DNA of 64,000 nucleotides, taken from contig SGBC01000002.1 of NCBI GenBank assembly GCA_004195045.1, positions 124,001-188,000 on the forward strand, given 5' to 3'. Source of the DNA: Candidatus Acididesulfobacter guangdongensis (GTDB lineage: Bacteria > SZUA-79 > Acidulodesulfobacterales > Acidulodesulfobacteraceae). A program made the translations under genes and the position numbers. The notes under the pieces were generated by a model, which worked only from the letters and a program-made list of their open reading frames with translations, was not told the origin of the DNA and made no database searches. Shown here piece by piece: positions 20,920 to 36,610 of the stretch (position 1 is its first letter; the number at the start of each line of letters is the position of its first letter).

Positions 20920-22017
20920 TTAATCTAAATCAGAAATAAGATATATTGCAATAAACAAAAAAGATAAATCAGCCATAAATGCCGCTAAAATAGGATTCAG
21001 CTGCGAACTCATCCCTAAGGATATCGCAATTGAATTTATTATCCAGTAGCCGAATGCTAAAATAATGCTGATGCCGATAGCGGCGGAAGTGCCGGATTTT
21101 TTGCCTATAATTATACCTATAGATATTCCTATAAGGACCAGCATTAAATTTATTAAAGGAAACGCAAATTTTGAATACATAAACGTTTTTATCAGATTTA
21201 AATTTGAATCAGTTTTTTTAGCAACCTTTAACATCTTAAAAAGATTAAATATTGATAAAAATTCTGATTTTAAATCATATGATTTAAAAAAATTAATGCT
21301 GAGTTTTATAGGAAGGCTTGTTGTTTTAACAATTTTGGCAAATGAGGGATAATGCTGATTTTTATTAAAATTATTTATTATTACATCGTCCATTATTAAT
21401 TTGTTGCTGTCAAAGTACCCGTTTCTGGCGCTATATCTTTTAACAAGTTTAAATTTATTGTTAAATTCATAGATGCTTAATCCGGTTAATTTTTTTTCCG
21501 GTATATTTAAAACTTTTGCGGTTATAATATATTTTTGATAATGTATAGCTATATCTTTTGTTTTAAATTTATAAATCGATTTTACGCTGTAGTTTTTATT
21601 TTTATTTATATATTTTTGCATAACTATTCTTCTTTCGATATTTGTTTTCACCGCTATAAAATTTGAGAGCGCAAAAGAAAAAATTGACAGCCCCAGCGCA
21701 GTTATTATTAACGGAAGTGTGAATTTCAGCATACTTATGCCTGAAGATTTTATAGCCGTAATTTCATTATTTTTATTAAATGAGATTATTATCAGCATTG
21801 TTGATAATAAAATTGATAAAGGCAAAATCCGATATATTATCTCAGGCAGTTTGAGAAGAAAATAAAGAATAATATAGCTGAAATTAGGGGAATGTTTTGT
21901 AAATGCCTCCATATTAGATATAAAATCAACAATTACATAAAAAGAAGACAAAGAAATTATTGAGATAGATAATACTTTAAAAAATTCTTTAAGCAGATAA
22001 TTTCTTAATATTTTCAT
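20920..22017 (-). CDS. lptG: LPS export ABC transporter permease LptG
   Basis: A 365-residue inner-membrane permease of the LptF/LptG (YjgP/YjgQ) family. Two N-terminal membrane helices, a further pair, a large periplasmic beta-jellyroll (about residues 130-265) and two or three C-terminal helices match LptG topology. The family landmark NEITAIKSSGISM is present in the cytoplasmic coupling helix that docks on LptB. Being second in the pair after LptF, it is assigned as LptG; F and G are hard to separate by sequence alone. It overlaps lptF by four bases (ATGA). Confidence 0.88.
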   Translation of the reverse strand: MKILRNYLLKEFFKVLSISIISLSSFYVIVDFISNMEAFTKHSPNFSYIILYFLLKLPEIIYRILPLSILLSTMLIIISFNKNNEITAIKSSGISMLKFTLPLIITALGLSIFSFALSNFIAVKTNIERRIVMQKYINKNKNYSVKSIYKFKTKDIAIHYQKYIITAKVLNIPEKKLTGLSIYEFNNKFKLVKRYSARNGYFDSNKLIMDDVIINNFNKNQHYPSFAKIVKTTSLPIKLSINFFKSYDLKSEFLSIFNLFKMLKVAKKTDSNLNLIKTFMYSKFAFPLINLMLVLIGISIGIIIGKKSGTSAAIGISIILAFGYWIINSIAISLGMSSQLNPILAAFMADLSFLFIAIYLISDLD

Positions 22018-23105
22018 TTTGCCGATGCCTTTATATATAATATAGCGCCTGTGGCAAATAGAATTATATCTGCCCCAAAAACTCCTATAACGGGATTAAA
22101 GCCGGTTTTAATCGATAAGTACAATCCTGAAGTAAATAAAATATAATACAGCACGACAATTGCTATGGTATAAAATATAGCCATAAAGAGGCTTCTTTTT
22201 TCCGACAGCATAGCCAGCGGCAAGCCGATAAGCACAAAAAATATTACCGCAATAGGTATGGCAATTTTTTTAAGTATATATATTAAATAAATATTTTTGA
22301 TATTATTTTTATTACCTGCAGAATTATATTTCGAAATAAGCTGCGAAATAGTCATAAAATGCACTGAATTATTTCTTGAAGGAAACGAAAGTCCTTTCAG
22401 TTTGATGTTTATTTTATAAGTTTTAAAATTTAATATCCAGAAATTTTTTTTTGATCTGTATTTTTTTTGAATCTGTCCATTTTTTAAATAAAAAGAAATT
22501 AAATTTCGTTTTTTATTGTAAACAATATATCCCTTGTTAGCTATTAAAACCATAGAATTATTTTTAATTTTATATAATATAAAAATACCTTTAATGGAAG
22601 ATTTTGAAGGATTTACCTGCTTTATAAATATTTTATATTTACCCAATTTATTAGAAAATGAATTTTTTTTTAATGCAGAAAGCACCGCTTTTTTTATCTC
22701 TTTAACAGCTAATACTCTAAAAAAATAATTAAATCTCGGAGCCATATAAAAGGAAAAAAACAGTGAGGCAACGAGAGGTATTAAAGAAAATAGCAGAGCA
22801 GGCTTTGTTAATTGCCATATATTGACGCCGGAAGCCTTAAGCGCCATTATTTCATTTGACTGAGTCATCTTTCCGAATACTACTAAAACTGCGAGCAAAA
22901 ATGAAATTGGCAGTGTTATTATCATAAAATCAGGCAGCGTTAAACTTGCGAGTTTAATGACGGAAGTAATGCTGACGCCTTTATTGATGACCATTTCCGT
23001 CAGCATTAAAATTCTGTTGGTAATTATGCTGAAAGTAAATATAACAAGTCCGAAAATAAAAGGCGGAAAAAATTGTCTAAATATATATCTGTTTATCAAG
23101 GACAT
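22014..23105 (-). CDS. lptF: LPS export ABC transporter permease LptF
   Basis: A 363-residue permease, first gene of the minus-strand lptFG pair. N-terminal helices MSLINRYIFRQFFPPFIFGLVIFTF, the coupling sequence SNEIMALKASGVNIWQL (landmark NE-I-x-A-L-K-A-S-G), a central periplasmic domain rich in Lys/Asn and Ile, and C-terminal helices (IPIAVIFFVLIGLPLAML, AIFYTIAIVVLYYILF) match LptF. It forms the LptB2FG extractor with lptG and the distant lptB. It is divergent from the pseudo-receiver gene across a 257-base AT-rich gap. Confidence 0.88.
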   Translation of the reverse strand: MSLINRYIFRQFFPPFIFGLVIFTFSIITNRILMLTEMVINKGVSITSVIKLASLTLPDFMIITLPISFLLAVLVVFGKMTQSNEIMALKASGVNIWQLTKPALLFSLIPLVASLFFSFYMAPRFNYFFRVLAVKEIKKAVLSALKKNSFSNKLGKYKIFIKQVNPSKSSIKGIFILYKIKNNSMVLIANKGYIVYNKKRNLISFYLKNGQIQKKYRSKKNFWILNFKTYKINIKLKGLSFPSRNNSVHFMTISQLISKYNSAGNKNNIKNIYLIYILKKIAIPIAVIFFVLIGLPLAMLSEKRSLFMAIFYTIAIVVLYYILFTSGLYLSIKTGFNPVIGVFGADIILFATGAILYIKASAK

Positions 23106-23253: not shown

Positions 23254-23362
23254 TATGATTATAAATTAATAAAAATTATTACCTTATACTGCAGTCAATT
23301 TTACGATTATATCAAAATTATGCTTTAATTTAAAGCTTTGATTTTTTTAAGGAGGAGCTGCT

Positions 23363-25243
23363 ATGCCGATGCCCTACGAAGTATTGTATGTTGATGATAG
23401 CGATGCAATGCAAAAAACCGTCTCTATGATTTTTTTAAATAATTCCGAATTTAAAATAATTCCTCTTTACGACGGTTCTTCAACAACGACAATCCTTAAC
23501 AATAGTCTTCCGTCCATTATTATTATTAATTATAATATAAGCAATGCAAGCAGCTATAATATAATAAAGGAGATTAAAAATAACGGTTTATATTCTAATA
23601 TTCCTGTGCTGCTGGCTGCGCCTTCCGACCTGCCGAATAAAGAACGGGAATTGTTTGTTGAGGCGGGTTTAACCGGTTTTATATATAGACCTTTTGACAA
23701 AGAAACCTTTATTAATAAAATAAAGAGGTCTTTAGGTTTAAATATTAACGAAGATAAAATTTATGATATTGCAGAATTTGAAAAAAAGCATGAAAAAATT
23801 GAAAATAATGAACGTCAAAATATTCCAAATATTCCAGCAGAACAATCAGATGATGATATGACTGAGAATACCGCAAAAAACGATAATATTCAGTCAAATT
23901 CCGGACAAGAGCAGGATTCTGCAGAATTAAGCGAAGCGTTTGAGAATCTTTTTAAAGATGATAATATTTTTAAAGAATTTCAAAAATTAGATAAAGAAAA
24001 TGAAAAAATAAATGTTCAGAAAAATGTGACCGTTAATGATAGTGATGATTACGATAAAATCCCGGATGCTGTTCCTGATGCAGGCAGCCGTGTTGATGCC
24101 GGTACCAATATTGATGTTAATACGGCAAGAACAGATATTGCAGATAACGTTATTGATATTACGCAATCTGCATCTGCAAACACAAACAGTGATATATCAA
24201 TAGAATCAGGAAATATTCGCGCAGACGGCAGCGATAGTGCCGGCAATAGCCGCGTTCCGGACGAGGTAAGCATATCCGAGGTTGTTCCTTACGAATTAGA
24301 AAGTGTCAGAAATATTAAAATAGAACAGGTTGATAATAATAGCGAAGGACCGGAAATATTAGACAACAACATGCGGCAAACTGATAGCGCCTTATATGCC
24401 GGTGATGCAGCGGCTAAATCAGAAAATTTTAATAATAATAGCGATGATGTTCATGATAATAGCGATGAAAACAAAATTAACGAATATATGTCTAAAATTA
24501 TTATTAATGAAGACATCGATAATAGCGATAATATCCGCAGTTTAAACTTCATAAATAATAATAATGGTGAAGAAGATATAACCGCGGACAGCGCCGGCGG
24601 GTTAGATATTATTCAACCGGAGCCCGAAAAACCGGCTGAAACCGAATTTAACATAAATATGCCTGAAATTTACGATATTCAGGAATCTAATCGTGATGAA
24701 AGCGGAGTTATTGCCAATTTTGGTGAGAATAATAATGATAATAGCGATATCGCTGATGACGCCAATAAAAATTATATTTTTGCCGAACAGGATCAGAATG
24801 ATATCTCTACTGCCGCCGCAGTCAGTGTTGAAACTGAAGTGGACGGCAATAATTATTATGACGGTACTGCACATAGCAGCAGCGCAAATAAAGCAGATTA
24901 TAATGCTCATACTGCACAAAATGATTATGAAGTTCCTGCTGAGCAGAATTATTTAAATTTAGCTGAAATACCTGAATCGGAAAATACGAACGATGCGCAA
25001 ATTTCTTTATATAATATTAACAATGATAATAATAATGCAGTCAGTAAAGGAGGTAATGTAAAATTGGAGTTTATAAATGATGAAGTTATCGGCAAAATAG
25101 ACGAGTATATAAAAAAATCAATAAATGATATAATAAATAATATACAGCCTGAAATAATTGAAAATATTAAAAATATATTACCTGAAATTGCAGAAAAATT
25201 AATAAAAGAAGAAATTGACAAAATTAAAAATGAAAATATTTGA
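23363..25243 (+). CDS. Pseudo-receiver domain protein with long disordered linker
   Basis: A 626-residue protein in three parts. Residues 5-125 have the CheY-like fold (YEVLYVDDSDAMQ... SIIIINYNISNAS... IPVLLAAPSD... GFIYRPFDKETFINKI). However, the phospho-acceptor Asp is Asn56 and the conserved Lys before Pro-Phe is Arg, so phosphorylation is unlikely. Residues about 130-565 are a low-complexity, acidic, Asn/Asp/Ser-rich linker. The last 60 residues form an amphipathic helix (KIDEYIKKSINDII... PEIAEKLIKEEIDKI). From memory this tail resembles the end of Deltaproteobacterial receiver proteins, and FrzS of Myxococcus likewise has a pseudo-receiver. A scaffold or polarity role is speculation. 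GGAGGAG precedes the ATG. Its end overlaps nadC. Confidence 0.8.
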   Translation: MPMPYEVLYVDDSDAMQKTVSMIFLNNSEFKIIPLYDGSSTTTILNNSLPSIIIINYNISNASSYNIIKEIKNNGLYSNIPVLLAAPSDLPNKERELFVEAGLTGFIYRPFDKETFINKIKRSLGLNINEDKIYDIAEFEKKHEKIENNERQNIPNIPAEQSDDDMTENTAKNDNIQSNSGQEQDSAELSEAFENLFKDDNIFKEFQKLDKENEKINVQKNVTVNDSDDYDKIPDAVPDAGSRVDAGTNIDVNTARTDIADNVIDITQSASANTNSDISIESGNIRADGSDSAGNSRVPDEVSISEVVPYELESVRNIKIEQVDNNSEGPEILDNNMRQTDSALYAGDAAAKSENFNNNSDDVHDNSDENKINEYMSKIIINEDIDNSDNIRSLNFINNNNGEEDITADSAGGLDIIQPEPEKPAETEFNINMPEIYDIQESNRDESGVIANFGENNNDNSDIADDANKNYIFAEQDQNDISTAAAVSVETEVDGNNYYDGTAHSSSANKADYNAHTAQNDYEVPAEQNYLNLAEIPESENTNDAQISLYNINNDNNNAVSKGGNVKLEFINDEVIGKIDEYIKKSINDIINNIQPEIIENIKNILPEIAEKLIKEEIDKIKNENI

Positions 25244-26078
25244 CGAGCAGGTAATTTCTTTAGTTTCTAATGCGTTAGCCGAAGATATAAAAGGTTCGGA
25301 CATTACTACGGACGCTATTGCAAGCAAATGTAATCCGCAGATTGAATGTGAGGTAATAACAAAAGAGGACGGCGTTGTTTGCGGTTTAACTATTTTTTCA
25401 TTAGTCTTTGATATGTTAAGCAAAAATAATTTTGAAATTGGTTATTTTGCTGAAGAAGGTGAAAAGATAACGAAATTTCAAAAAATTATTTCTATTAAAG
25501 CCAAATCTGATGTTATTTTATACGGCGAAAGGACCGCGCTTAATTTTCTGCAATTCCTTTCAGGAATTGCGACGGCATCTAATCTTGCAGCTAATGAGCT
25601 TTCAGGTTTAAAAACAAAAGTTCTTGATACAAGAAAAACGCTTCCGGGATTGCGCGCTATTCAAAAATATGCCGTAAATGTAGGCGGAGCTGATAATCAC
25701 AGGTTTAACCTGTCATCCGGCATTTTAATCAAGGATAATCACATAAAGCTTGCAGGCGGGATTAAGCAAGCCTTAGAAATGGTAAGAAGCTATAATGCCG
25801 GATTTAATCAGAAAATAGAAATTGAAGTAAGTTCGATAGAACAGGTAGCCGAAGCATTAGAAGGGCGGGCAGATATTATAATGCTTGATAATATGAGTAT
25901 TGCAGAAATGCAAAGGGCTGTAAAAATTATCGGCAAAAATGCCGTTACGGAAGCCTCCGGAAATATTACTATAAAAAATTTAAGAAAAATAGCCGAGGAA
26001 ACTGAAGTTGATTATATTTCTATGGGTTCCCTGACTAATGCCGTAAAACCGATTGATTATTCTTTAAATTTTGTATGA
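25230..26078 (+). CDS. nadC: Nicotinate-nucleotide pyrophosphorylase (carboxylating)
   Basis: Quinolinate phosphoribosyltransferase of de novo NAD synthesis, about 282 residues. Signatures: EDIKGSDITTDAI, ERTALNFLQFLSGIAT, DTRKTLPGLRAIQKYAVNVGGADNHRFNLSSGILIKDNH, and the phosphate loop EASGNITIKNLRKIAE. The start overlaps the end of the pseudo-receiver gene. ATG 25230 gives MKIFDEQV and an overlap of 14 bases; an in-frame TTG at 25215 is less likely. The overlap suggests coupled translation and co-transcription with the pseudo-receiver gene despite unrelated function. Confidence 0.96.
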   Translation: MKIFDEQVISLVSNALAEDIKGSDITTDAIASKCNPQIECEVITKEDGVVCGLTIFSLVFDMLSKNNFEIGYFAEEGEKITKFQKIISIKAKSDVILYGERTALNFLQFLSGIATASNLAANELSGLKTKVLDTRKTLPGLRAIQKYAVNVGGADNHRFNLSSGILIKDNHIKLAGGIKQALEMVRSYNAGFNQKIEIEVSSIEQVAEALEGRADIIMLDNMSIAEMQRAVKIIGKNAVTEASGNITIKNLRKIAEETEVDYISMGSLTNAVKPIDYSLNFV

Positions 26079-26130: not shown

Positions 26131-26970
26131 ATGAATGCCATTAATGAGTTAGATTATATTGATATTTTTGAGATAAAAAAACATCTTAAAACAAATTTTA
26201 TAGGAAAAAATATATTTTACGAAGAAAAAGTAGGTTCTACGAACTTAATGGCGAGGGAGCTTGCTGTTAAAGGTGCTAAGAACGGTACTGTGGTTATTGC
26301 CGATACACAGGACAAAGGCAAAGGCAGAAACGGAAAAATATGGACGTCCCCTAAGGCATGCAATATATATCTGTCTATTATATTGAAACCCAAGTTCACT
26401 CCTGAAGCTGCCAACGGCATGACTATTCTGGCGGCAACGGCAGCTGCGGAATCTATCAAAGAAATTTCCTCTATTACTCCGCAAATTAAATGGCCTAACG
26501 ATATTTTAGTAAATTCAAAAAAGGTCTCCGGAATTTTGACGGAAATGAGCACTCAAAATAATATTATAGAATATATTATCATAGGAATAGGTATTAATGT
26601 TAATCTTAAAGAAGAAGATATTTACGAAGATATAAAAAATGTAGCTACGTCTTTATATATCGAAAGAACAAAGGAACTCAAGCAATTAAACGAAGATAAC
26701 CTATTTATAAACAGAAATAATTTGATAATAAGTTTTCTTAATAAATTTGAGAAATATTATGAAACGTTCCTATCCACCGGTTTGTCGTCGATACTGCAAA
26801 TTTATCAAAAATATTTTGGAATGATAGGAAAAGATGTGGAAATAAATAGTGAAAATCACAAGATTAAAGGTCAGGTTGTCGGTATAGATTCCAAAGGAGC
26901 ATTATTGTTAAAAACCGGCGAAAATGAATTAGAAAAAGTGGTTTCCGGCGAGTTGACCGTTTTGTTATAA
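26131..26970 (+). CDS. birA: Biotin-[acetyl-CoA-carboxylase] ligase, class I (no DNA-binding domain)
   Basis: Attaches biotin to the carrier protein of acetyl-CoA carboxylase, 279 residues. The catalytic domain shows VGSTNLMARELA, the biotinyl-AMP loop KGKGRNGKIWTSP (canonical GRGRxGR), IKWPNDILVNSKKVSGILTE, and IGIGINVN. A C-terminal SH3-like cap follows (KIKGQVVGIDSKGALLLKT). The roughly 30 residues before the catalytic domain are too short for the helix-turn-helix of E. coli BirA, so repression of biotin genes is not expected. GGAGGA precedes the ATG, and a perfect hairpin overlaps the stop codon. Confidence 0.94.
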   Translation: MNAINELDYIDIFEIKKHLKTNFIGKNIFYEEKVGSTNLMARELAVKGAKNGTVVIADTQDKGKGRNGKIWTSPKACNIYLSIILKPKFTPEAANGMTILAATAAAESIKEISSITPQIKWPNDILVNSKKVSGILTEMSTQNNIIEYIIIGIGINVNLKEEDIYEDIKNVATSLYIERTKELKQLNEDNLFINRNNLIISFLNKFEKYYETFLSTGLSSILQIYQKYFGMIGKDVEINSENHKIKGQVVGIDSKGALLLKTGENELEKVVSGELTVLL

Positions 26971-27068: not shown

Positions 27069-27998
27069 ATGTTTTTATCCTGCGATATCGGCAATACAGA
27101 CACCGTATTCGGTGTTTATAATAATTCAGACGGCAATTACAATGATGAAGAGAAAGATATATTCAGGGTGTATAGGATTTTGACTTCTGAAATATGTTCA
27201 GAACGGGATATTTTCAGCACATTAAACAGATTATTTTTTAATGATGGCATCAGCATAAGCGATATAGAATATATTTGTGTATCTTCGGTAGTTCCATCCC
27301 AAAATAAATTTTATAAATTGTTTTGCAGTCTGTTAAACTGCCGTGCAATTTTTATTTCTTCGGTTTCAAAAACAGGTATTAATCTAATAGTTGAAAACCC
27401 TGAGAAATTAGGTGCAGACCGCATTGTCAACGCAAGCTACGCATATCATCTAAGCAAAGAATTTCAAATAATAGTTGATATAGGAACAGCATTAAAAATT
27501 GATATCGTTGATGCAGCGGGAAATTTTAAAGGAGGCATTATATTTCCCGGGTTAAAAACTCTTGCAGTGTGTCTTAATGAGAAAACAGCATTGCTTCCGC
27601 CGATAAATATAAATGAACTGAGCCGCAACAAAAACAGCGGCAATGTCCTGAACAGTGACAATAAAGACGTTAATAACGGTTTCAGCGAAAATTATAATGA
27701 CAGCGGCAATGAAGGTAACGAAACTGATATTAATAGCAATGATACTATACAGTTAATAGGCGACAATACAATTAAAGCAATACAGTCGGGATTATTATAC
27801 GGCACTATATTTCTGATAGAAGGTTTTATAAAAGAAATTCAGAAGCAATATAACAAAACGGAATGCAAAGTTATTTTTACCGGCGGATTATCTAATATTA
27901 TCGCTGATAAATGCAGGATGAAAGGCTTAAAAATAATTGACGGTTTGTGGACGATAAAAGGTTTAAAATTTTTATATAAACTTAATACGGCAGTCTAA
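27069..27998 (+). CDS. coaX: Type III pantothenate kinase with Asn-rich insertion
   Basis: First step of coenzyme A synthesis, 309 residues. The phosphate-binding start SCDIGNTDTVFGVY, the middle motif GADRIVNASYAYHL, DIGTALKIDIVD and GGIIFPGLKTL are all in place. The C-terminal ASKHA part has GLLYGTIFLIEGFI and VIFTGGLSN. CoaX is usually near 255 residues. The excess is an insertion of about 50 residues (roughly 182-232) rich in Asn, Ser, Asp and Gly, placed after the PPININEL segment. It is probably a disordered surface loop. The gene ends four bases inside the convergent hydrolase gene. Confidence 0.92.
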   Translation: MFLSCDIGNTDTVFGVYNNSDGNYNDEEKDIFRVYRILTSEICSERDIFSTLNRLFFNDGISISDIEYICVSSVVPSQNKFYKLFCSLLNCRAIFISSVSKTGINLIVENPEKLGADRIVNASYAYHLSKEFQIIVDIGTALKIDIVDAAGNFKGGIIFPGLKTLAVCLNEKTALLPPININELSRNKNSGNVLNSDNKDVNNGFSENYNDSGNEGNETDINSNDTIQLIGDNTIKAIQSGLLYGTIFLIEGFIKEIQKQYNKTECKVIFTGGLSNIIADKCRMKGLKIIDGLWTIKGLKFLYKLNTAV

Positions 27999-28991: not shown

Positions 28992-30965
28992 ATGAAAAAT
29001 AAAAATAAACTTCCTGCAGAAAAAACGCGTATCAAAAGAGAAATAATTTTTATTTTTATCGGAATATTTTTAGTTATTGTTTCTACTTTTGTAGAAACAA
29101 GAATGCTTTCGTTCGCGGATGTTTCTATAACTTCAAAAATTATTGTTTACGCATATATCAATGTAACTATAATTTTATTTTTTTTAATGCTGTTTTTGAT
29201 TATAAGAAACATTATAAAACTTTTTTTAGACAAACGAAAGAACGCACTTGGTTCAAAATTGCGCTCTAAACTTGTCGCTTTATTTGTATTAGTAAGTCTT
29301 ATACCTTCTTTTTTTATGTTTGCGGTTATAATTGCCGCTGGATTTTTTGCTAATGGGATTAACAAATGGTACGTCCCGGGCATTGAAAAAACTATGGGAT
29401 ATTCGCTGAAAATAGCAAAGTTTTTAGATAGCCATAAGCCGACTAATAATATATATAAATATGCTCGGCGCAATTCCGTTCATTCAGCTAACTCAATATC
29501 TACAGATAAAATAGATAGAATAAACAGAATGGCTGACTATATAAAGCATTTTTATGCAGAATATTGGCAGGTCGGATTCTTAAAAAATCCTATAGAAACA
29601 ACATATTTTATCTTATTCTCAACTTTTACCCTTCTTATTCTGTTTATTTCTATATGGGTTGGATTTTATCTTTCCAAAAAAATAACAGAACCGATAATAA
29701 ACCTTGTCAAAGGAACGGAAAAAATAGCTTCAGGCGAGTTAGACGTAAATATTAATTCGGGTTCCGACGATGAGATAGGTATGCTTATAAATTCATTTAA
29801 TAATATGGCTAAGGATCTTAAGAAAAATAAAGAAATCATTGAAAATGCCAATCTGAATCTTAAAAACATCAATACTGAAATTGAAAGAAGAAGAAAATAT
29901 ATAGAAATTATTTTAAAAAATATAGGCACCGGCGTTATTACTATTGACTCTTCCGGAAAGATTAAAACAATAAACAATGCGGCAGAATATATGTTTCAGG
30001 TTAATTTTCAGGAAGCAGCAAATAAAAACTATAAAGACGTTTTCAGCAAGATTACTTTTTCTGAAATAAGGGAAATTATAAAAAATCTCGCTAAAAATAA
30101 TAAAGAAGAAAGTATTACAAAAGAAATGAAATTAAATATAAACGGTAAATTGCATGTTTATATTATTAATGTTACGGTAATGAAAGATGAAAAAGATTCT
30201 TATATAGGATTTATCATAGTTATCAATGATACCACCGATATGATGAAAGCGCAGAGAATAGCCGCATGGGAAGAAGTTGCAAAGAGAATTGCGCATGAAA
30301 TAAAAAACCCCTTAACGCCGATAAAATTGTCTGCCCAGAGATTAAAAAGAAAATTCGGAGACAAATTAGAATATGATAATAAAATTTTCAACGATTCTAT
30401 TGATATTATAATTAAAGAAGTTGATGATTTAAAAGGTCTTGTAGATGAATTTTCTTTATATGCCAGACTGCCTAAGGCAAATTTTAATTATGCCGATGTA
30501 AATTTATTAATAGAAGAATCTTTTTCTTTTTATAGCAACGCGCATAAAAATATACAATTTATTCATAATAATAATATAAACAGAGATATACCGTCAGTTT
30601 ATATAGATAAATTGCAGTTTAAAAGGGCTATAATAAATATTCTTGATAATGCGGTGTATAGCATAAATACCAATCGCAGGCATATACGGGAAAAAGGAAC
30701 GAATTTCATTAAAGCGGAAACGTTTTTTAATCAGGAAAGCCAAATCGTGATGATGAAGATATCCGATACTGGCTCAGGCATTGAAGAAGAAAATCTGCCG
30801 AATATATTTGAACCTTATTTCTCAACGAAAAGGGGCGGTACAGGTTTAGGGCTTGCTATAACCAGAAACATTATTACCGAAAATCACGGGATAATATATG
30901 CGCATAATATTTCTGACGGCGGCGCGGAGTTTGTTATAGAAATAAAACTTGTAAACGATATTTAA
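28992..30965 (+). CDS. ntrY: Nitrogen-regulation sensor histidine kinase NtrY
   Basis: A 657-residue membrane kinase, partner of NtrX. Two N-terminal membrane helices and a third near residue 95-115 are followed by a periplasmic loop and another helix near residue 205-225. Then come HAMP (GTEKIASGELDVNINSGSDDEIGMLINSFNNM), PAS (about 300-410), HisKA with the H-box RIAHEIKNPLTPIKLSAQRLKRK (His near 434), and HATPase (NILDNAVYSI, DTGSGIEEENLPNIFEPYF, GGTGLGLAI). The TPIKLSAQRLKRK extension is characteristic of NtrY. ntrX follows after 36 bases. The signal it senses is unknown; a redox or nitrogen role is inferred from the family. Confidence 0.93.
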   Translation: MKNKNKLPAEKTRIKREIIFIFIGIFLVIVSTFVETRMLSFADVSITSKIIVYAYINVTIILFFLMLFLIIRNIIKLFLDKRKNALGSKLRSKLVALFVLVSLIPSFFMFAVIIAAGFFANGINKWYVPGIEKTMGYSLKIAKFLDSHKPTNNIYKYARRNSVHSANSISTDKIDRINRMADYIKHFYAEYWQVGFLKNPIETTYFILFSTFTLLILFISIWVGFYLSKKITEPIINLVKGTEKIASGELDVNINSGSDDEIGMLINSFNNMAKDLKKNKEIIENANLNLKNINTEIERRRKYIEIILKNIGTGVITIDSSGKIKTINNAAEYMFQVNFQEAANKNYKDVFSKITFSEIREIIKNLAKNNKEESITKEMKLNINGKLHVYIINVTVMKDEKDSYIGFIIVINDTTDMMKAQRIAAWEEVAKRIAHEIKNPLTPIKLSAQRLKRKFGDKLEYDNKIFNDSIDIIIKEVDDLKGLVDEFSLYARLPKANFNYADVNLLIEESFSFYSNAHKNIQFIHNNNINRDIPSVYIDKLQFKRAIINILDNAVYSINTNRRHIREKGTNFIKAETFFNQESQIVMMKISDTGSGIEEENLPNIFEPYFSTKRGGTGLGLAITRNIITENHGIIYAHNISDGGAEFVIEIKLVNDI

Positions 30966-31001
30966 TATAACACAAAGGTATTAAACGGTATAAAAATAAC
31001 T

Positions 31002-32471
31002 ATGAAATCTATACTTATAATAGACGATGAAGAAAGTATAAGAAAATCACTTGAGGGGATTTTTATCGATGAAGGCTATGGCGTAATTTCAGAAGAATTC
31101 GGAGAAGAGGGGCTTAAAACTTTTTCAGAAAAATTGCCTAATGCGGTATTGCTTGATATCTGGCTTCCTGATAGCGACGGCACTGCTATTTTAAATTCTA
31201 TGGTTAAAATTAACAAAAATATTCCCGTAATTATGATATCCGGACATTCAGATATAGATACGGCAATTAAAACAATAAAAATAGGCGCCTATGATTTTAT
31301 AGAAAAACCGCTTTCTTTAGAAAGGGTTCTTATAACTGTTGAAAATGCGCTAAAATTTAATGAATTAAACGAAAAAAAAATTGTTCTGGCGGAAAGCATA
31401 CCGGGGCATGAAGATGAATTAATAGGCAATTCCGATAAGATTAAGGAATTAAAAAATAAAATATTAAAAGCGGCAGTTTCAGATGCCCCTATTTTAATCA
31501 CCGGAGAGAACGGGACAGGAAAAGAATTAGTTGCAAAATCTCTGCATTTTAACAGTTCAAGATTAGAAGAACCGTTTATTGCTATTAATTGTGCCGCCGT
31601 CCCTGAAGATTTAATAGAAAGTGAGCTGTTTGGTTATGAAAAAGGGGCATTTACAGGCGCATTGTCGCGCAAAAAAGGCAAATTTGAGATTGCAGACGGC
31701 GGGACGCTTTTTCTTGATGAAATAGGCGATATGAGTTTAAGAATGCAGTCAAAAATTTTAAGGGTTCTGCAGGATAATAAGTTTCAGCGTGTGGGAGGGG
31801 AATCCACAGTAGAAGTTAATACGAGAATTATTGCTGCAACAAATAAAAACCTTGAAGATGAGATAAAAAAAGGTAATTTTAGAAGTGATTTATTTTTCAG
31901 GCTTAATGTTATACCGTTTTTTGTTACGCCGCTCAGGGAAAGAAAAGAAGATATACCCATGCTTGTCAATTATTTTATTGATAAATTTAACCGCAGCAAT
32001 AAACAAAAATTATATATAACTATTGAAGACGATGCGGTGGAACTTTTTAAAAATTATTCATGGAAAGGTAATGTAAGGGAATTAAAAAATATTATAGAAA
32101 GATTTGCGATAATGTATTGCGGCAGCCAGATAACAAAATATGATGTTGCAAAGGAATTAAAAATAGATATAGAATATTTCGGAGATAAATTAAACAATGC
32201 TGCCGACCCTGAGATTTCAGATTCGGATAATTGTATATACAATATTCATGATAACAATGCAATAAGTAAATATATCGGTATAAACTCTTTAAGAAAAGCA
32301 AAAGAAACATTTGAAAGAGATTATATAATTTCAAAATTAAAGGAAAATAATTTTAATATTTCAAATACCGCTAAAAAAATAGGAATGTCCCGCAGAAATC
32401 TCCACAATCGAATAATTTTACTGAATATAGATAATAATATTCATAATATCTGCAGTGAAATTAAAGAATAA
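31002..32471 (+). CDS. ntrX: Sigma-54-dependent response regulator NtrX
   Basis: A 489-residue activator. Receiver domain with acidic pair D8-D9 and phospho-acceptor D52 (AVLLDIWLPDSDG). AAA+ domain with Walker A GENGTGKE, the sigma-54 contact loop GAFTGA, Walker B GGTLFLDEIGD, and the arginine motif FRLNVIPFFVTPLRERKEDIP. A C-terminal Fis-type helix-turn-helix (FNISNTAKKIGMSRRNLHNRI). With an intact GAFTGA it should activate RpoN polymerase. The nearest -24/-12 promoter is at 33020, 0.55 kb downstream, in front of porin-glnK-amtB. A MITE-like element begins four bases past its stop. Confidence 0.94.
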   Translation: MKSILIIDDEESIRKSLEGIFIDEGYGVISEEFGEEGLKTFSEKLPNAVLLDIWLPDSDGTAILNSMVKINKNIPVIMISGHSDIDTAIKTIKIGAYDFIEKPLSLERVLITVENALKFNELNEKKIVLAESIPGHEDELIGNSDKIKELKNKILKAAVSDAPILITGENGTGKELVAKSLHFNSSRLEEPFIAINCAAVPEDLIESELFGYEKGAFTGALSRKKGKFEIADGGTLFLDEIGDMSLRMQSKILRVLQDNKFQRVGGESTVEVNTRIIAATNKNLEDEIKKGNFRSDLFFRLNVIPFFVTPLRERKEDIPMLVNYFIDKFNRSNKQKLYITIEDDAVELFKNYSWKGNVRELKNIIERFAIMYCGSQITKYDVAKELKIDIEYFGDKLNNAADPEISDSDNCIYNIHDNNAISKYIGINSLRKAKETFERDYIISKLKENNFNISNTAKKIGMSRRNLHNRIILLNIDNNIHNICSEIKE

Positions 32472-32474
32472 TTA

Positions 32475-32629
32475 GTAATCCAACTTCACTATAATTATCA
32501 GTAATACATTGATATTACTATATATATGGGGCAATAAAAAAGTCTATGCGAGTACAAAATAAAATATAAAATATAATAATATCAATATGTTATAATTTTA
32601 GAATAATAAAAGTGGTTAAGTTGGGATAA
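32475..32629 (+). mobile_element. MITE-like element, copy 1 (155 bp)
   Basis: The sequence matches the reverse complement of 47526-47690 over its whole length. By hand alignment about nine in ten positions agree, with one gap of about 10 bases. Terminal inverted repeats are recognisable but decayed (left TAATCCAACTTCACTA, right TGGTTAAGTTGGGATAA). There is no open frame inside. It starts four bases after the ntrX stop. A non-autonomous transposon is the best explanation; a mobile terminator or small RNA cannot be excluded. Confidence 0.7.
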
Positions 32630-32922
32630 GGTTAATTAAGTTAATTATAATTAAAAACTATCGTCCGTAAATTTCAGCAATCCATTTCTGCCTATAATTT
32701 GTTCAATTATTGGTCAATATATAAAATGATTAAAATTTATGCACTTATGTTGACTAAAAATTAGGCATAACTGCACTATCTCTCCATTCGTAATTTCTTC
32801 CCAAACAGTTTGTTATTACGCCGGTTGTTAATCAGAACGTACGATTTTTCATTTTTATAGATGATAACTTGTTAATATTATTTTGTTTTTTAAATTATGC
32901 CTCTATGCTGATATTCATGCTG

Positions 32923-32984
32923 CCGCATTAATGCGGATCAGTACTCTAATAGATAATGCAATCAGCAATACCGGCATATTGCCG
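32923..32984. promoter_or_regulatory. Two dyads upstream of the sigma-54 promoter (candidate activator sites)
   Basis: A perfect 14-base palindrome CCGCATTAATGCGG (32923-32936) and a second dyad CGGCA-TAT-TGCCG (32972-32984) stand about 90 and 45 bases upstream of the -24 element at 33020. They are unusually GC-rich for this gap. Their position suits an enhancer-binding protein such as NtrX. Neither matches the classical NtrC consensus closely. The rest of the 773-base gap 32472-33244 holds the MITE, the promoter and a microsatellite. Confidence 0.4.
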
Positions 32985-33019
32985 TTAATTATGCTTGAGC
33001 CCGGTTAAAATAAAAATTA

Positions 33020-33035
33020 TGGCACTATTATTGCA
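33020..33035 (+). promoter_or_regulatory. Sigma-54 (-24/-12) promoter for porin-glnK-amtB
   Basis: TGGCAC-TATTA-TTGCA matches the sigma-54 consensus TGGCAC-N5-TTGCW at every fixed position. The GG and GC dinucleotides begin 12 bases apart (33021 and 33033). Transcription would start near 33045, some 200 bases before the porin ATG. It is the best promoter match in the window outside the heat-shock operon. Confidence 0.8.
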
Positions 33036-33103
33036 TTGATATAAAAAGCAATTATGCAGAAATTAATTTTTATATGTTTTATCTGATGACGTTATAACGG
33101 CAA

Positions 33104-33185
33104 TCTAATTTTAATTTTAATTTTAATTTAATTTAATTTAATTTAATTTCCATTTTATTTTATTTTATTTCATTCCATTTTAATT
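33104..33185. repeat. TTAAT/TTTAT pentanucleotide microsatellite
   Basis: Runs of TTTAA, TTAAT and TTTTA units lie in the 5' leader of the porin gene, between the sigma-54 promoter and the ribosome site. Slippage here would change leader length, so phase-like tuning is conceivable but untested. Confidence 0.7.
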
Positions 33186-33244
33186 AAATATTCTTTAACT
33201 ATTTTAACAACTGTTATTTTACAAAATTTTAAGGGGAGGAAGTT

Positions 33245-34771
33245 ATGAAAGCTGGTATCAGAAATAGCAAGGACGGGAAAAACCGTGTGAGGCAGAGTAA
33301 TAATACTATGAATCCGGTATTAAACTCAATAAAGTTAATGTTTTTAGTTTTATTAGCGGTATTTTTTGTTTCAGCCGTTGTTGCAAAAAAGTCTTTTGCA
33401 GCTGAAGCATTGTCTTCGGGAGCCGGAAGCGCCTTTAAAAACGCGAATAGTCCGAAAGCTGAATACGGCAATACCGACAGCGCGGCGCTGAACTCTCTTA
33501 CGCTAAAAATGAATAAAATTTCTAAAGAATTAAATAAACTGAAAGCAGAACAGCAAAGTTCAAATTCCTATTTTTCGAATATTCAGCTTCTCGGGACGCT
33601 GATAGCTTCTTACACATATAATCTTGCTAAACCGAACGGCTATAACGGCAATTACGGCGATAACTGGCAGCCCGACGGTTTTGCGGTTAATAATGCCGAC
33701 ATTACATTGAGGCGTTCCCCCGGAACAGACTCTAATCCGTATGGCGTAGGCTTTCATATTTCATTGGATTTCGGTCAGAATATCCAGTTTTATAAAGCAT
33801 ATTACGGAAATCCATCCTACTTTACGCAGCCTATGCAGGACAGAACCCCTTACGACGTAAGGCAGGCTTATATCAACATAAATTTGCCGGTCGGAAGCGG
33901 TCTTGATGTACATATAGGTAAAGAAAAAGAACAGCTGGGATTTGAAAATTTCAATCCTATCAGAAACTGGAACGATACATATTCATTGCTGGACGATGCC
34001 GAGCCTGCAACCTTAACAGGCATATTTCTAACGTATAATTTTGTTCCGCAGCTTACTTCAACATTGGGTATTGCTAATACGGATAATGCGGCAGTGCCGA
34101 TTGATAACCTGCCGGTAATAGAATTAAACGAGTCTTATACGCCTGTGAGCGTCCTGACTTTTAACGGCGGATTTATCTATGGAGCAAACAGCTATTTTAT
34201 AGCGTCTAACTCTGCAAATAATAACACGCCTACATTAGAACAGGACAATCTGAATAAATCGTTTTACAGCTATATAGACGCTCAGTACAGCCCGGACAAC
34301 GACTGGTCTTTCGTGGCTGATTACGAAGTGGGTCTCGGAGGAGGAATTAACAGCGGTGTTCTAAATACCGAATGCAGCGGATTAAGCATAAGCAATTGTG
34401 GGATTCAATATCCTTCTTCTTTAATTCAGACTTCAGATTCTACGTACGATAAGTCTCATTTTAGCGGGGCGGCGGTCTATATTCATCATCAGAAAAATTA
34501 TTCAATAGGAATGTTCGGAGAAACATTAAGGGAAACGCTGGCATTAGACCCCAACGGTATGTGGGAAGCTACGAGCACCCCCGGAGTATCAAATACTTAT
34601 TTAGATACTACTCTTACGTTTGCTTATCAGCCTTCTGACGCATTATTTAAAAGCACGCAGTTCAGACTTGAATTTGAGCATCAATCGGATAATCATCATG
34701 TTTATGCAGGCTTAACCGAAAACCACAGCGTGCAGAACACGGTAAATTTTATGGTTCTGTATAGTTTTTAG
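33245..34771 (+). CDS. Outer-membrane beta-barrel porin (OmpL-like / BBP2 type)
   Basis: A 508-residue exported protein. A signal sequence with an extended basic N-region is followed by LMFLVLLAVFFVSAVVAKKSFA, with Ala-x-Ala-like cleavage near SFA-AEA. A short coiled coil follows (LTLKMNKISKELNKLKAEQQ, residues about 82-101), then a series of amphipathic beta strands with aromatic girdles (VGFHISLDFGQNIQFYKAYYG, VRQAYININLPVGSGLDVHIGKEKEQLGFENFNPIRNW). The C-terminus ends NFMVLYSF, with the terminal Phe needed for barrel insertion. The strand pattern recalls the BBP2/OmpL-like porin family. Preceding glnK-amtB behind the sigma-54 promoter, it may admit a nitrogen compound; that is inference. 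Strong ribosome site AGGGGAGGA. Confidence 0.8.
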   Translation: MKAGIRNSKDGKNRVRQSNNTMNPVLNSIKLMFLVLLAVFFVSAVVAKKSFAAEALSSGAGSAFKNANSPKAEYGNTDSAALNSLTLKMNKISKELNKLKAEQQSSNSYFSNIQLLGTLIASYTYNLAKPNGYNGNYGDNWQPDGFAVNNADITLRRSPGTDSNPYGVGFHISLDFGQNIQFYKAYYGNPSYFTQPMQDRTPYDVRQAYININLPVGSGLDVHIGKEKEQLGFENFNPIRNWNDTYSLLDDAEPATLTGIFLTYNFVPQLTSTLGIANTDNAAVPIDNLPVIELNESYTPVSVLTFNGGFIYGANSYFIASNSANNNTPTLEQDNLNKSFYSYIDAQYSPDNDWSFVADYEVGLGGGINSGVLNTECSGLSISNCGIQYPSSLIQTSDSTYDKSHFSGAAVYIHHQKNYSIGMFGETLRETLALDPNGMWEATSTPGVSNTYLDTTLTFAYQPSDALFKSTQFRLEFEHQSDNHHVYAGLTENHSVQNTVNFMVLYSF

Positions 34772-34792
34772 GCAGTTATAGTTATAATTTAA

Positions 34793-35200
<408 letters not shown>

Positions 35201-35281
35201 TTTTGTGTATTTTATAATAATGATGATTATCATTATGATTATAATTTAAAGAGATACAATTATATAATCTGGAGAATAATT

Positions 35282-36610
35282 ATGAAAAAAATTAACGGAA
35301 TTCTAACAGTTTTCGGAGGGCTGTTTTTAGTTCTCTTTGGCTGGGCTACACCCGTATTTGCGGCGACTACCAAGGTGCCAAAGTTTGTTCCGGGAAATAT
35401 AGCGTGGGTGCTGGCTTCTTCAGCGCTTGTGCTTATAATGACACCGGCATTAGGGTTTTATTACGGCGGTATGGTCAGAAAAAAGAACGTGCTGAATACT
35501 ATATCGCTAAGTTTTATTACAATATGCACGGTAAGTATTATTTGGATACTATGGGGTTATTCTATAGCGTTCGGACCGGATGCTTTTTTTGGGATTATAG
35601 GTAATCTTAAGTATTTAGGATTGGCTGCTATGGGTGTAAATCAGCATTCTAGGTATGACGGCACTATTCCTTCTTTTATTTACGTTATGTTTCAATTAAT
35701 GTTCGCTATAATAACGGTTGCGCTTATCAGCGGTTCTTTAGTGGAGAGAATAAAATTTTCTTCATGGGTAGTTTTTACTGTAATATGGCTTACCGTAGTC
35801 TATGCTCCCGTAGCACAGTCGGTATGGGGTGTAGGAGGGTTATTTAATAATATGGGTGCGCTTGATTTTGCCGGAGGAACGGTCGTTCATATAAATTCCG
35901 GTGTTGCAGGTCTTGCAGGCGCATTAGTCCTCGGCAAAAGAAAAGGATATATGAAAGAAAATATTATTCAGCCTAACCAGCTGGCTTATACAATCTTGGG
36001 CGGCGCATTATTATGGTTCGGATGGTTTGGTTTTAATGCCGGCAGCGCGTTAGAAGCTAACGGTCTGGCGGCGTCTGCTTTTCTTGTAACAAATACTGCT
36101 ACCGCCGCCGCTGCAATAAGCTGGATGGTTGCGGAATGGATTCATAGCGGCAAGCCTACAACGCTGGGAATGATTTCCGGTGCGGTCGCAGGTCTTGTTG
36201 CTATAACGCCTGCTTCAGGTTTTGTTAACCCGCTCGCGTCTATTGTTATAGGACTTGTAGTCGGTGTTCTATGCTATTCTATGGTAGTTTTTGTAAAACC
36301 TAAACTTGGCTACGATGATGCGCTGGACGCCTTTAATGTTCACGCTATCGGCGGAGCATGGGGAGCGCTTGCGACAGGATTATTTGCCGACCCGCTTATA
36401 AATCCTGGACACAGCGGCTTATTTTACGGCAATCCTTATCAGGTTGTAATTCAGCTGATAACCATTGTATCGGTCGCCGGTTATTCTTTTATAATGAGTT
36501 ATATAATATTTAAACTTATAGATAAATTTATGGGCTTAAGAGTGAGTAAAGAGGAAGAAGCTATGGGTCTTGATATCACTCAGCATGATGAATCCGGTTA
36601 TAATCTGTAA
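35282..36610 (+). CDS. amtB: Ammonium transporter AmtB
   Basis: A 442-residue inner-membrane ammonium channel with an N-terminal signal peptide (GILTVFGGLFLVLFGWATPVFAA) and about 11 membrane helices. Family marks: TPALGFYYGGMVRKKN, WGYSIAFG, DFAGGTVVHINSGVAGLAGALVLGKRKGY (with the first pore His), GGALLWFGWFGFNAGSALEANGLAASAF, and DALDAFNVHAIGGAWGALATGLFA (second pore His region). The cytoplasmic tail is short. It shares the operon with glnK and ends in a strong terminator. Confidence 0.97.
   Translation: MKKINGILTVFGGLFLVLFGWATPVFAATTKVPKFVPGNIAWVLASSALVLIMTPALGFYYGGMVRKKNVLNTISLSFITICTVSIIWILWGYSIAFGPDAFFGIIGNLKYLGLAAMGVNQHSRYDGTIPSFIYVMFQLMFAIITVALISGSLVERIKFSSWVVFTVIWLTVVYAPVAQSVWGVGGLFNNMGALDFAGGTVVHINSGVAGLAGALVLGKRKGYMKENIIQPNQLAYTILGGALLWFGWFGFNAGSALEANGLAASAFLVTNTATAAAAISWMVAEWIHSGKPTTLGMISGAVAGLVAITPASGFVNPLASIVIGLVVGVLCYSMVVFVKPKLGYDDALDAFNVHAIGGAWGALATGLFADPLINPGHSGLFYGNPYQVVIQLITIVSVAGYSFIMSYIIFKLIDKFMGLRVSKEEEAMGLDITQHDESGYNL

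Follow-up and report, generated by a model that had tools for sequence, protein, structure and literature searches.

A RomR-like protein with a pseudo-receiver as a candidate scaffold in Candidatus Acidulodesulfobacterales

Gene content of the locus

The window, a stretch of 64,000 nucleotides from Candidatus Acididesulfobacter guangdongensis, contains a gene encoding a 626-aa protein that joins a pseudo-receiver to a long acidic linker and a helical tail resembling the C-terminal domain of RomR (RomR-C). The host genome has a size of 2.2 Mb in 5 contigs and belongs to Ca. Acidulodesulfobacterales, whose description as an order came from work on an acid mine drainage system (PMC6776010). The following features were annotated in the window:

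20920..23105, minus strand: two LptF_LptG-family genes, divergent from the RomR-like gene (Pfam; gene order)
23349..23356, plus strand: ribosome-binding-like sequence AAGGAGGA just 5' of the start codon (read in the sequence)
23363..25243, plus strand: 626-aa protein with pseudo-receiver, acidic linker and RomR-C-like tail (ORF and translation; orthologues)
23363..23737, plus strand: pseudo-receiver, residues 1-125 (Pfam; 26 orthologues; dN/dS; model)
23744..23788, plus strand: short conserved motif KIYDIAEFE, residues 128-142 (orthologue alignment)
23789..25048, plus strand: acidic, Asn/Asp/Ser-biased linker around a conserved block (composition; dN/dS 0.36-0.64)
23912..23998, plus strand: conserved linker block SAELSEAFENLFKDDNIFKEFQ, residues 184-212 (column identity; profile search)
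25049..25240, plus strand: RomR-C-like helical tail, residues 563-626 (alignment; profile-profile comparison)
25230..26078, plus strand: nadC (QRPTase domains, Pfam), starting inside the last codons of the RomR-like gene (14-base overlap)
26131..26970, plus strand: birA-like biotin ligase gene, in a cassette with nadC (Pfam; gene order)
27069..27998, plus strand: coaX-like type III pantothenate kinase gene, in the cassette with nadC and birA (gene order)

The order LptG-LptF / RomR-like gene-nadC-birA-coaX is kept in all 12 loci examined, which come from 6 genera and include inverted cassettes. The stable neighbours of the gene in these loci are nadC-birA-coaX and LptF/LptG; pilus or polarity genes are not among them. 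The product of the coaX-like gene has an insert rich in Asn, Asp and Ser, NKDVNNGFSENYNDSGNEGNETDINSNDT, which resembles the linker of the RomR-like protein. At 28992-36610 of the window, genes for a HAMP-PAS histidine kinase, a sigma-54 response regulator, a porin, a P-II protein and an ammonium transporter are grouped, which looks like a nitrogen-regulation cluster.

Occurrence in the family

Thirty genomes of Ca. Acidulodesulfobacterales (G000-G029) were compared and are referred to as the family. The gene is present in 27 of them, 26 with a receiver plus one receiver-less version in G008, and the three genomes lacking it are 59-86% complete. Two of the 26 receiver-bearing frames (G015 and G020) end at a contig end before the tail. 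The relative in Candidatus Acididesulfobacter diazotrophicus (L040) shares 52% identity with the window protein over the best segment. In G008 (99% complete), a version of about 86 residues occupies the same gene-order position without the receiver and the AFENLF block, and consists of EIHDISEFE plus the tail. The tail is the part kept in this lineage, a natural deletion of the rest, and the receiver is dispensable, since the G008 version persists without it.

Receiver domain

The Pfam Response_reg profile recognises residues 7-120 (E 9.5e-8) at 32.6 bits, barely exceeding the cut-off of 30.2. The acidic pair is kept (D11, D12), N56 occupies the site of the phospho-Asp and R109 that of the conserved Lys, as the preliminary description had read from the sequence; the loss at the Ser/Thr site (A86) was absent from that description. 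The aromatic switch place holds F106. Across the 26 receiver-bearing orthologues, position 56 is N in 9, S in 13 and G in 4, and Asp in none; the Ser/Thr site is A in 7 and V in 19; the Lys site is Arg in every case, within GFIYRPF; and the acidic pair reads DD in 12 and DE in 14. The variation at position 56 argues against a fixed phosphomimic, and a local loss of Asp was rejected because Asp is absent from all 26.

The mean dN/dS of the receiver is 0.07 among 7 same-genus sequences. It is thus under purifying selection, and the pseudo-receiver is kept by selection. The domain resembles the bacterial pseudo-receivers treated by Bourret et al. (2025; PMC12632262), which are likewise recognised by a receiver profile yet lack residues needed for phosphotransfer; here the D, T and K sites are lost. 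The name RomR occurs nowhere in the main text of the review, and the present build is not an example there under that name. A pseudo-receiver family, as proposed in the preliminary description, therefore stands: orthologues with Asp at position 56, which would have made the loss a local one, were not found among the 26.

Two AlphaFold2 models were built with 7 close sequences each, with a mean pLDDT of 49.4 for residues 1-220 and 34.0 for the whole protein. The top PDB matches of the low-confidence model of residues 1-220 are receivers, and the models are too weak to suggest more than a receiver-like fold.

Linker and its conserved islands

With its limits set at residues 126-551, the linker is 426 aa long and contains 23% D+E, 7% K+R and 15% N, in keeping with the long acidic region first noticed. 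Its length ranges from 146 to 426 aa among the 24 full orthologues. In its best 300-residue stretch, N+D+S make up 38%, the top value among the 51 long frames in the window (mean of the others, 21%), which upholds the Asn/Asp/Ser bias; 'extreme low-complexity', as it had been called, is overstated, since the letter entropy of the linker (3.81 bits) is close to that of the receiver (3.89 bits). A simple heptad scan of the window protein gave only scattered 28-mers, and no helix appears at residues 221-572 in the low-confidence AlphaFold2 model.

Two islands interrupt the fast-evolving linker. Among the 7 same-genus sequences, mean dN/dS is 0.05 for the KIYDIAEFE island and 0.09 for the AFENLF block, against 0.36-0.64 in the rest of the linker. 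By column identity per 12 columns (24 orthologues), the SAELSEAFENLFKDDNIFKEFQ block reaches 0.96, the receiver at most 0.92 and the tail at most 0.87; the AFENLFKDD block is the most conserved stretch by this measure. The tail, at first described as far more conserved-looking than the linker, is indeed conserved, but this island of the linker exceeds it. AFE.LFKDD occurs in all 26 receiver-bearing orthologues, exactly as AFENLFKDD in 25 and as AFERLFKDD in G010, and the block has 10 invariant positions in 12 diverse rows.

A 30-position profile of the block finds a single strong place in each of 26 of the 30 family genomes and no strong place in G008, G014, G027 and G029. The family also gives two weak matches, in 23-aa frames of G006 and G016 that are both interrupted by a stop codon. 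In 163 other genomes only weak matches were obtained (best E 0.0049), and the block was found in none of 53 RomR-like frames scanned; the block as a motif shared beyond the gene was therefore rejected. It looks like a docking peptide, and the low-confidence models suggest that SAELSEAFENLFKDDNIFKEFQ perhaps forms two short helices.

Tail and its relationship to RomR

RomR is required by both Myxococcus motility systems and has been studied for the way it connects receiver signalling to the MglA GTPase. Its published build comprises a receiver, an unstructured lineage-specific linker and RomR-C with an invariant Trp and Pro; in M. xanthus, RomR-C alone or the linker alone is reported to suffice for polar targeting, and 26 of 31 RomR genomes are reported to encode both MglA and MglB (PMC3441718). 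Residues 371-420 of RomR are described as a trimer in solution, and W394 as required for MglC binding (PMC12719032).

The family tail has 8 invariant columns in 14 rows. P607, at the place of the invariant Pro of RomR-C, is kept in all 24 full family tails, and the same 24 have Lys where the MglC-binding Trp would stand (K603 in the window protein), as does the receiver-less G008 tail. In hhalign, the family tail profile matched a profile of 17 Trp-type tails with a probability of 95.8 and a score of 42.0 over 22 columns, which begin right after the Trp/Lys place. The reversed control gave a probability of 1.6 and a score of 13.3, and 60 column shuffles scored at most 17.6; 60 block-of-seven shuffles, in which tail pieces stay intact, reached up to 40.0 (mean 20.6) versus the real 42.0. 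The link runs via intermediates and profile-profile comparison, and on these sequence comparisons the family tail is judged to be related to RomR-C.

A tail profile built from the family alone picked up proteins, with per-genome E values as low as 5.8e-9, in genomes that have only the domain in common with the host and that we take to be other phyla; the RomR-like protein of G056 was not among its matches. A receiver of at least 90 residues is also held by 108 of the 121 non-family frames with a placed tail, and the remaining 13 include some cut frames. Among the non-family proteins, L114, encoded in a genome of 9 Mb, fits Myxococcus RomR: its tail ends in ...EKIAWEVVPQLAETIIRQELERLIKDRETQH, and its Trp stands 26 residues from the C-terminus, the position of W394 of 420 in the published numbering (PMC12719032). 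A search of PDB sequences with the tail gave a best E of 0.31.

The mean dN/dS of the tail (0.26 among the 7 same-genus sequences) is above the 0.07 of the receiver because the dS of the tail is low. For identical pairs, dS is 0.03-0.39 in the tail (25049-25240) and 0.20-1.01 in the receiver; an RNA or translation signal serving the overlapping nadC might explain the low value.

Compared with M. xanthus RomR, the family protein has the same three-part build of an N-terminal receiver, a long linker and a C-terminal tail that is helical, rich in Glu and marked by a conserved Pro (PMC3441718), and the tails match by profile comparison. It differs in a receiver without phospho-Asp and Ser/Thr and with Arg for Lys, in Lys for Trp394, in the private AFENLFKDD block and in the genome context, since the searches of the 30 family genomes yielded neither an MglA-like GTPase nor a Roadblock protein. 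Of the features that define RomR, the receiver and the RomR-C Pro are present, whereas the tail Trp is missing and MglA plus MglB were not found in the genomes; because of the latter two we call the protein RomR-like, not RomR.

A second comparison is offered by Bdellovibrio bacteriovorus. Its RomR is described as having a true start after the acidic pair and a receiver judged non-functional; MglB is reported absent, yet RomR is found at the invasive pole, and its authors consider the protein unregulated by phosphorylation (PMC6428892). A phosphorylation-independent RomR is thus already in print for this bacterium (PMC6428892). The family protein likewise has a receiver that lacks phosphotransfer residues, and no Roadblock protein was found in its genomes. 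In Bdellovibrio, however, the receiver is shortened by the late start, Asp and Lys are still in frame and MglA is present (PMC6428892), whereas in the family protein the receiver is complete in length but D, T and K are substituted, the tail has a Trp-to-Lys change, and no MglA-like GTPase was found in the genomes. The open-licence literature searched gave no account of RomR-like proteins in MglA-less genomes or in Acidulodesulfobacterales.

MglA-like GTPases and the tail Trp

An MglA-like GTPase (E <= 1e-10) was found in 0 of the 30 family genomes versus 137 of 386 genomes overall, and a Roadblock protein (PF03259, E <= 1e-5) in 0 of 30 versus 109 of 386. The MglA query was chosen by eye from the Roadblock cluster of G038 and matched Pfam Arf (E 1.7e-8) and NCBIfam small_GTP; as it matched no MglA-specific model, 'MglA' here denotes an MglA-like small GTPase.

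The co-occurrence of MglA with the tail Trp was examined in two sets. For set 1, 72 non-family genomes were matched, the 51 stronger matches were taken and 50 were classified, G185 being dropped as MreB (Pfam). The search profile (A3) had 18 rows, 6 from the family and 12 from 12 of the 50 set 1 genomes, which therefore match by construction. MglA was present in 28 of 28 genomes with Trp tails versus 8 of 22 without Trp (Fisher 3e-7; this test and those below treat related genomes as independent and leave phylogeny uncontrolled). Counted by family, with Acidulodesulfobacterales entered once, the values were 22/22 versus 8/19 (2e-5), and Roadblock occurred in 26/28 Trp-tail genomes versus 4/22 non-Trp genomes. 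Weak rows among the non-Trp class include G249, whose frame shows no receiver, and G091 and G232, which lack the Pro. Set 2 is one phylum of 118 genomes, picked after set 1 had been seen, in which 70 of the 80 matching genomes were classified; one genome (G152) is counted in both sets. Here MglA was present in 41 of 45 Trp-tail genomes versus 9 of 25 non-Trp genomes (2e-6), and Trp without MglA occurs in G414 (79% complete) and in three genomes from a single genus. On a receiver tree this association has only 2 well-supported independent pairs and so amounts to no phylogenetic proof.

A receiver tree with generic receivers (129 rows; 120 columns retained) gives no distinction between a RomR-like and another placement for the family; its 18 'generic' rows include, by mistake, the window protein itself. 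Arg for Lys was seen in 13 of 13 family rows used versus 0 of 108 other rows. The phospho-Asp is lost in 13/13 family rows used, 10/45 other non-Trp rows and 2/63 Trp rows, so that 96 of 108 rows of distant tail relatives keep it. For loss of the phospho-Asp against loss of the Trp there are 4 well-supported independent pairs, too few to give the comparison power.

Motility genes

PilT is above the cut-off in 28 of the 30 family genomes; being near-universal in the family, its co-occurrence says little. No FlhA was found in three genomes that are 96-100% complete: G010 and G019, which have the entire RomR-like gene, and G008, which has its tail. A flagellar role is therefore unlikely. A pilus link is possible, and a polar, pilus-linked role seems plausible.

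Proposed function and alternatives

Our best reading, held at about even odds (a probability of roughly 0.5), is that the protein is a phosphorylation- and MglAB-independent relative of RomR that acts as a tethered scaffold; the phosphorylation-independent scaffold of the preliminary description is retained in this form. As RomR-C is a trimer in solution, the helical tail may oligomerise, and it would tether the protein to one place in the cell, probably a pole. Clients would dock on two surfaces, the frozen receiver and the AFENLFKDD block, which the flexible acidic linker would hold apart, and output would be set by location and abundance instead of phosphorylation. Polar localisation, oligomerisation and every client are what we infer here, and the pole and the pilus are the weaker parts of the reading. 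The type IV pilus machinery would be the first candidate client, since PilT occurs in nearly all family genomes and RomR is needed for both Myxococcus motility systems.

The conserved gene order raises the possibility of a local regulator, a scaffold unrelated to polarity that binds NadC, BirA, CoaX or the LptF/LptG exporter. The order kept in 12/12 loci of 6 genera, even when inverted, and the 14-base overlap with nadC speak for it. Stable order can, however, be passive in a small genome, and the one distant relative checked (L034 in G042) sits between Amino_oxidase-family and class I tRNA synthetase genes; we consider a local regulator unlikely.

Alternatively, a RomR-like protein could be decaying towards loss after the MglAB module disappeared, as might be read from the missing MglA-like GTPase and Roadblock protein in 30/30 family genomes, the fast-evolving linker and the G008 version without receiver and central block. 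Such decay fits poorly with a receiver dN/dS of 0.07 in same-genus sequences, a block in which 10 positions are invariant across 12 diverse rows, and a gene present in 27/30 genomes, the other three being only 59-86% complete, and appears distinctly improbable.

It is quite doubtful that the receiver still switches in some other way, through modification of a different residue or as the binding site of a small molecule: both acidic residues are retained (DD 12, DE 14 of 26) and Ser replaces Asp in 13/26, but position 56 is itself variable (N, S or G) and the partner residues T and K are both lost in 26/26.

The preliminary description had instead likened the build to FrzS of M. xanthus, a pseudo-receiver polarity protein that acts by protein docking and would serve as a model for recruiting pilus regulators. 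The two share a receiver that cannot be phosphorylated at the usual place (26/26 family orthologues) and an aromatic residue at the switch position (F106; Tyr102 in FrzS, PMC1974792), but FrzS is described as having a 258-residue coiled coil and as keeping the Lys and losing the second acidic residue, the reverse of the family pattern (PMC1974792), so with no long heptad stretch in the simple scan of the window protein the FrzS model was rejected as very improbable. RomR is the closer model, since the tail matches RomR-C-type tails.

As a candidate RomR-like scaffold, the family protein retains the RomR build without a phosphorylatable receiver, a detectable GTPase module or the MglC-binding Trp, and could separate the scaffold's own role from what the GTPase adds. 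A tentative extension, which we think doubtful as a whole, is that RomR-C-type tails mark a scaffold family much wider than the MglA/MglB module, that the tail Trp marks coupling to it, and that the Acidulodesulfobacterales protein is a phosphorylation- and GTPase-free polarity hub with a private AFENLFKDD docking peptide. A genomic test is suggested: in the tail, the residue that precedes the conserved Pro by four positions should predict whether an MglA-like GTPase is encoded.

Receiver and tail variants in other genomes

Family f259 (L189, L187, L193, L195, L177 and L173) contains RomR-like proteins in which the phospho-Asp is replaced by N, S or A and the Lys is kept, and its genomes carry an MglA-like GTPase. 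As these proteins also lack the phospho-Asp, dead receivers evolved more than once in the wider family. In G101, no MglA-like GTPase was found, and two adjacent paralogous receiver-linker-tail genes (L072) are present, neither with the tail Trp. A 178-aa frame of G242 (L116) carries a RomR-C-like tail, IASEVVPRLAEQLI, on a different short N-terminus, MITVRGIYDGNIIKLLEPV..., which has no Pfam or NCBIfam match at E 0.001; the RomR-C-like tail may therefore be a mobile module. The RomR-like tails of L183, L184 and L185 (G397, G388 and G423) carry four tandem W(E)xxP copies spaced 12 residues apart, and several further genomes of the same phylum have two W(E)xxP copies about 31 residues apart.
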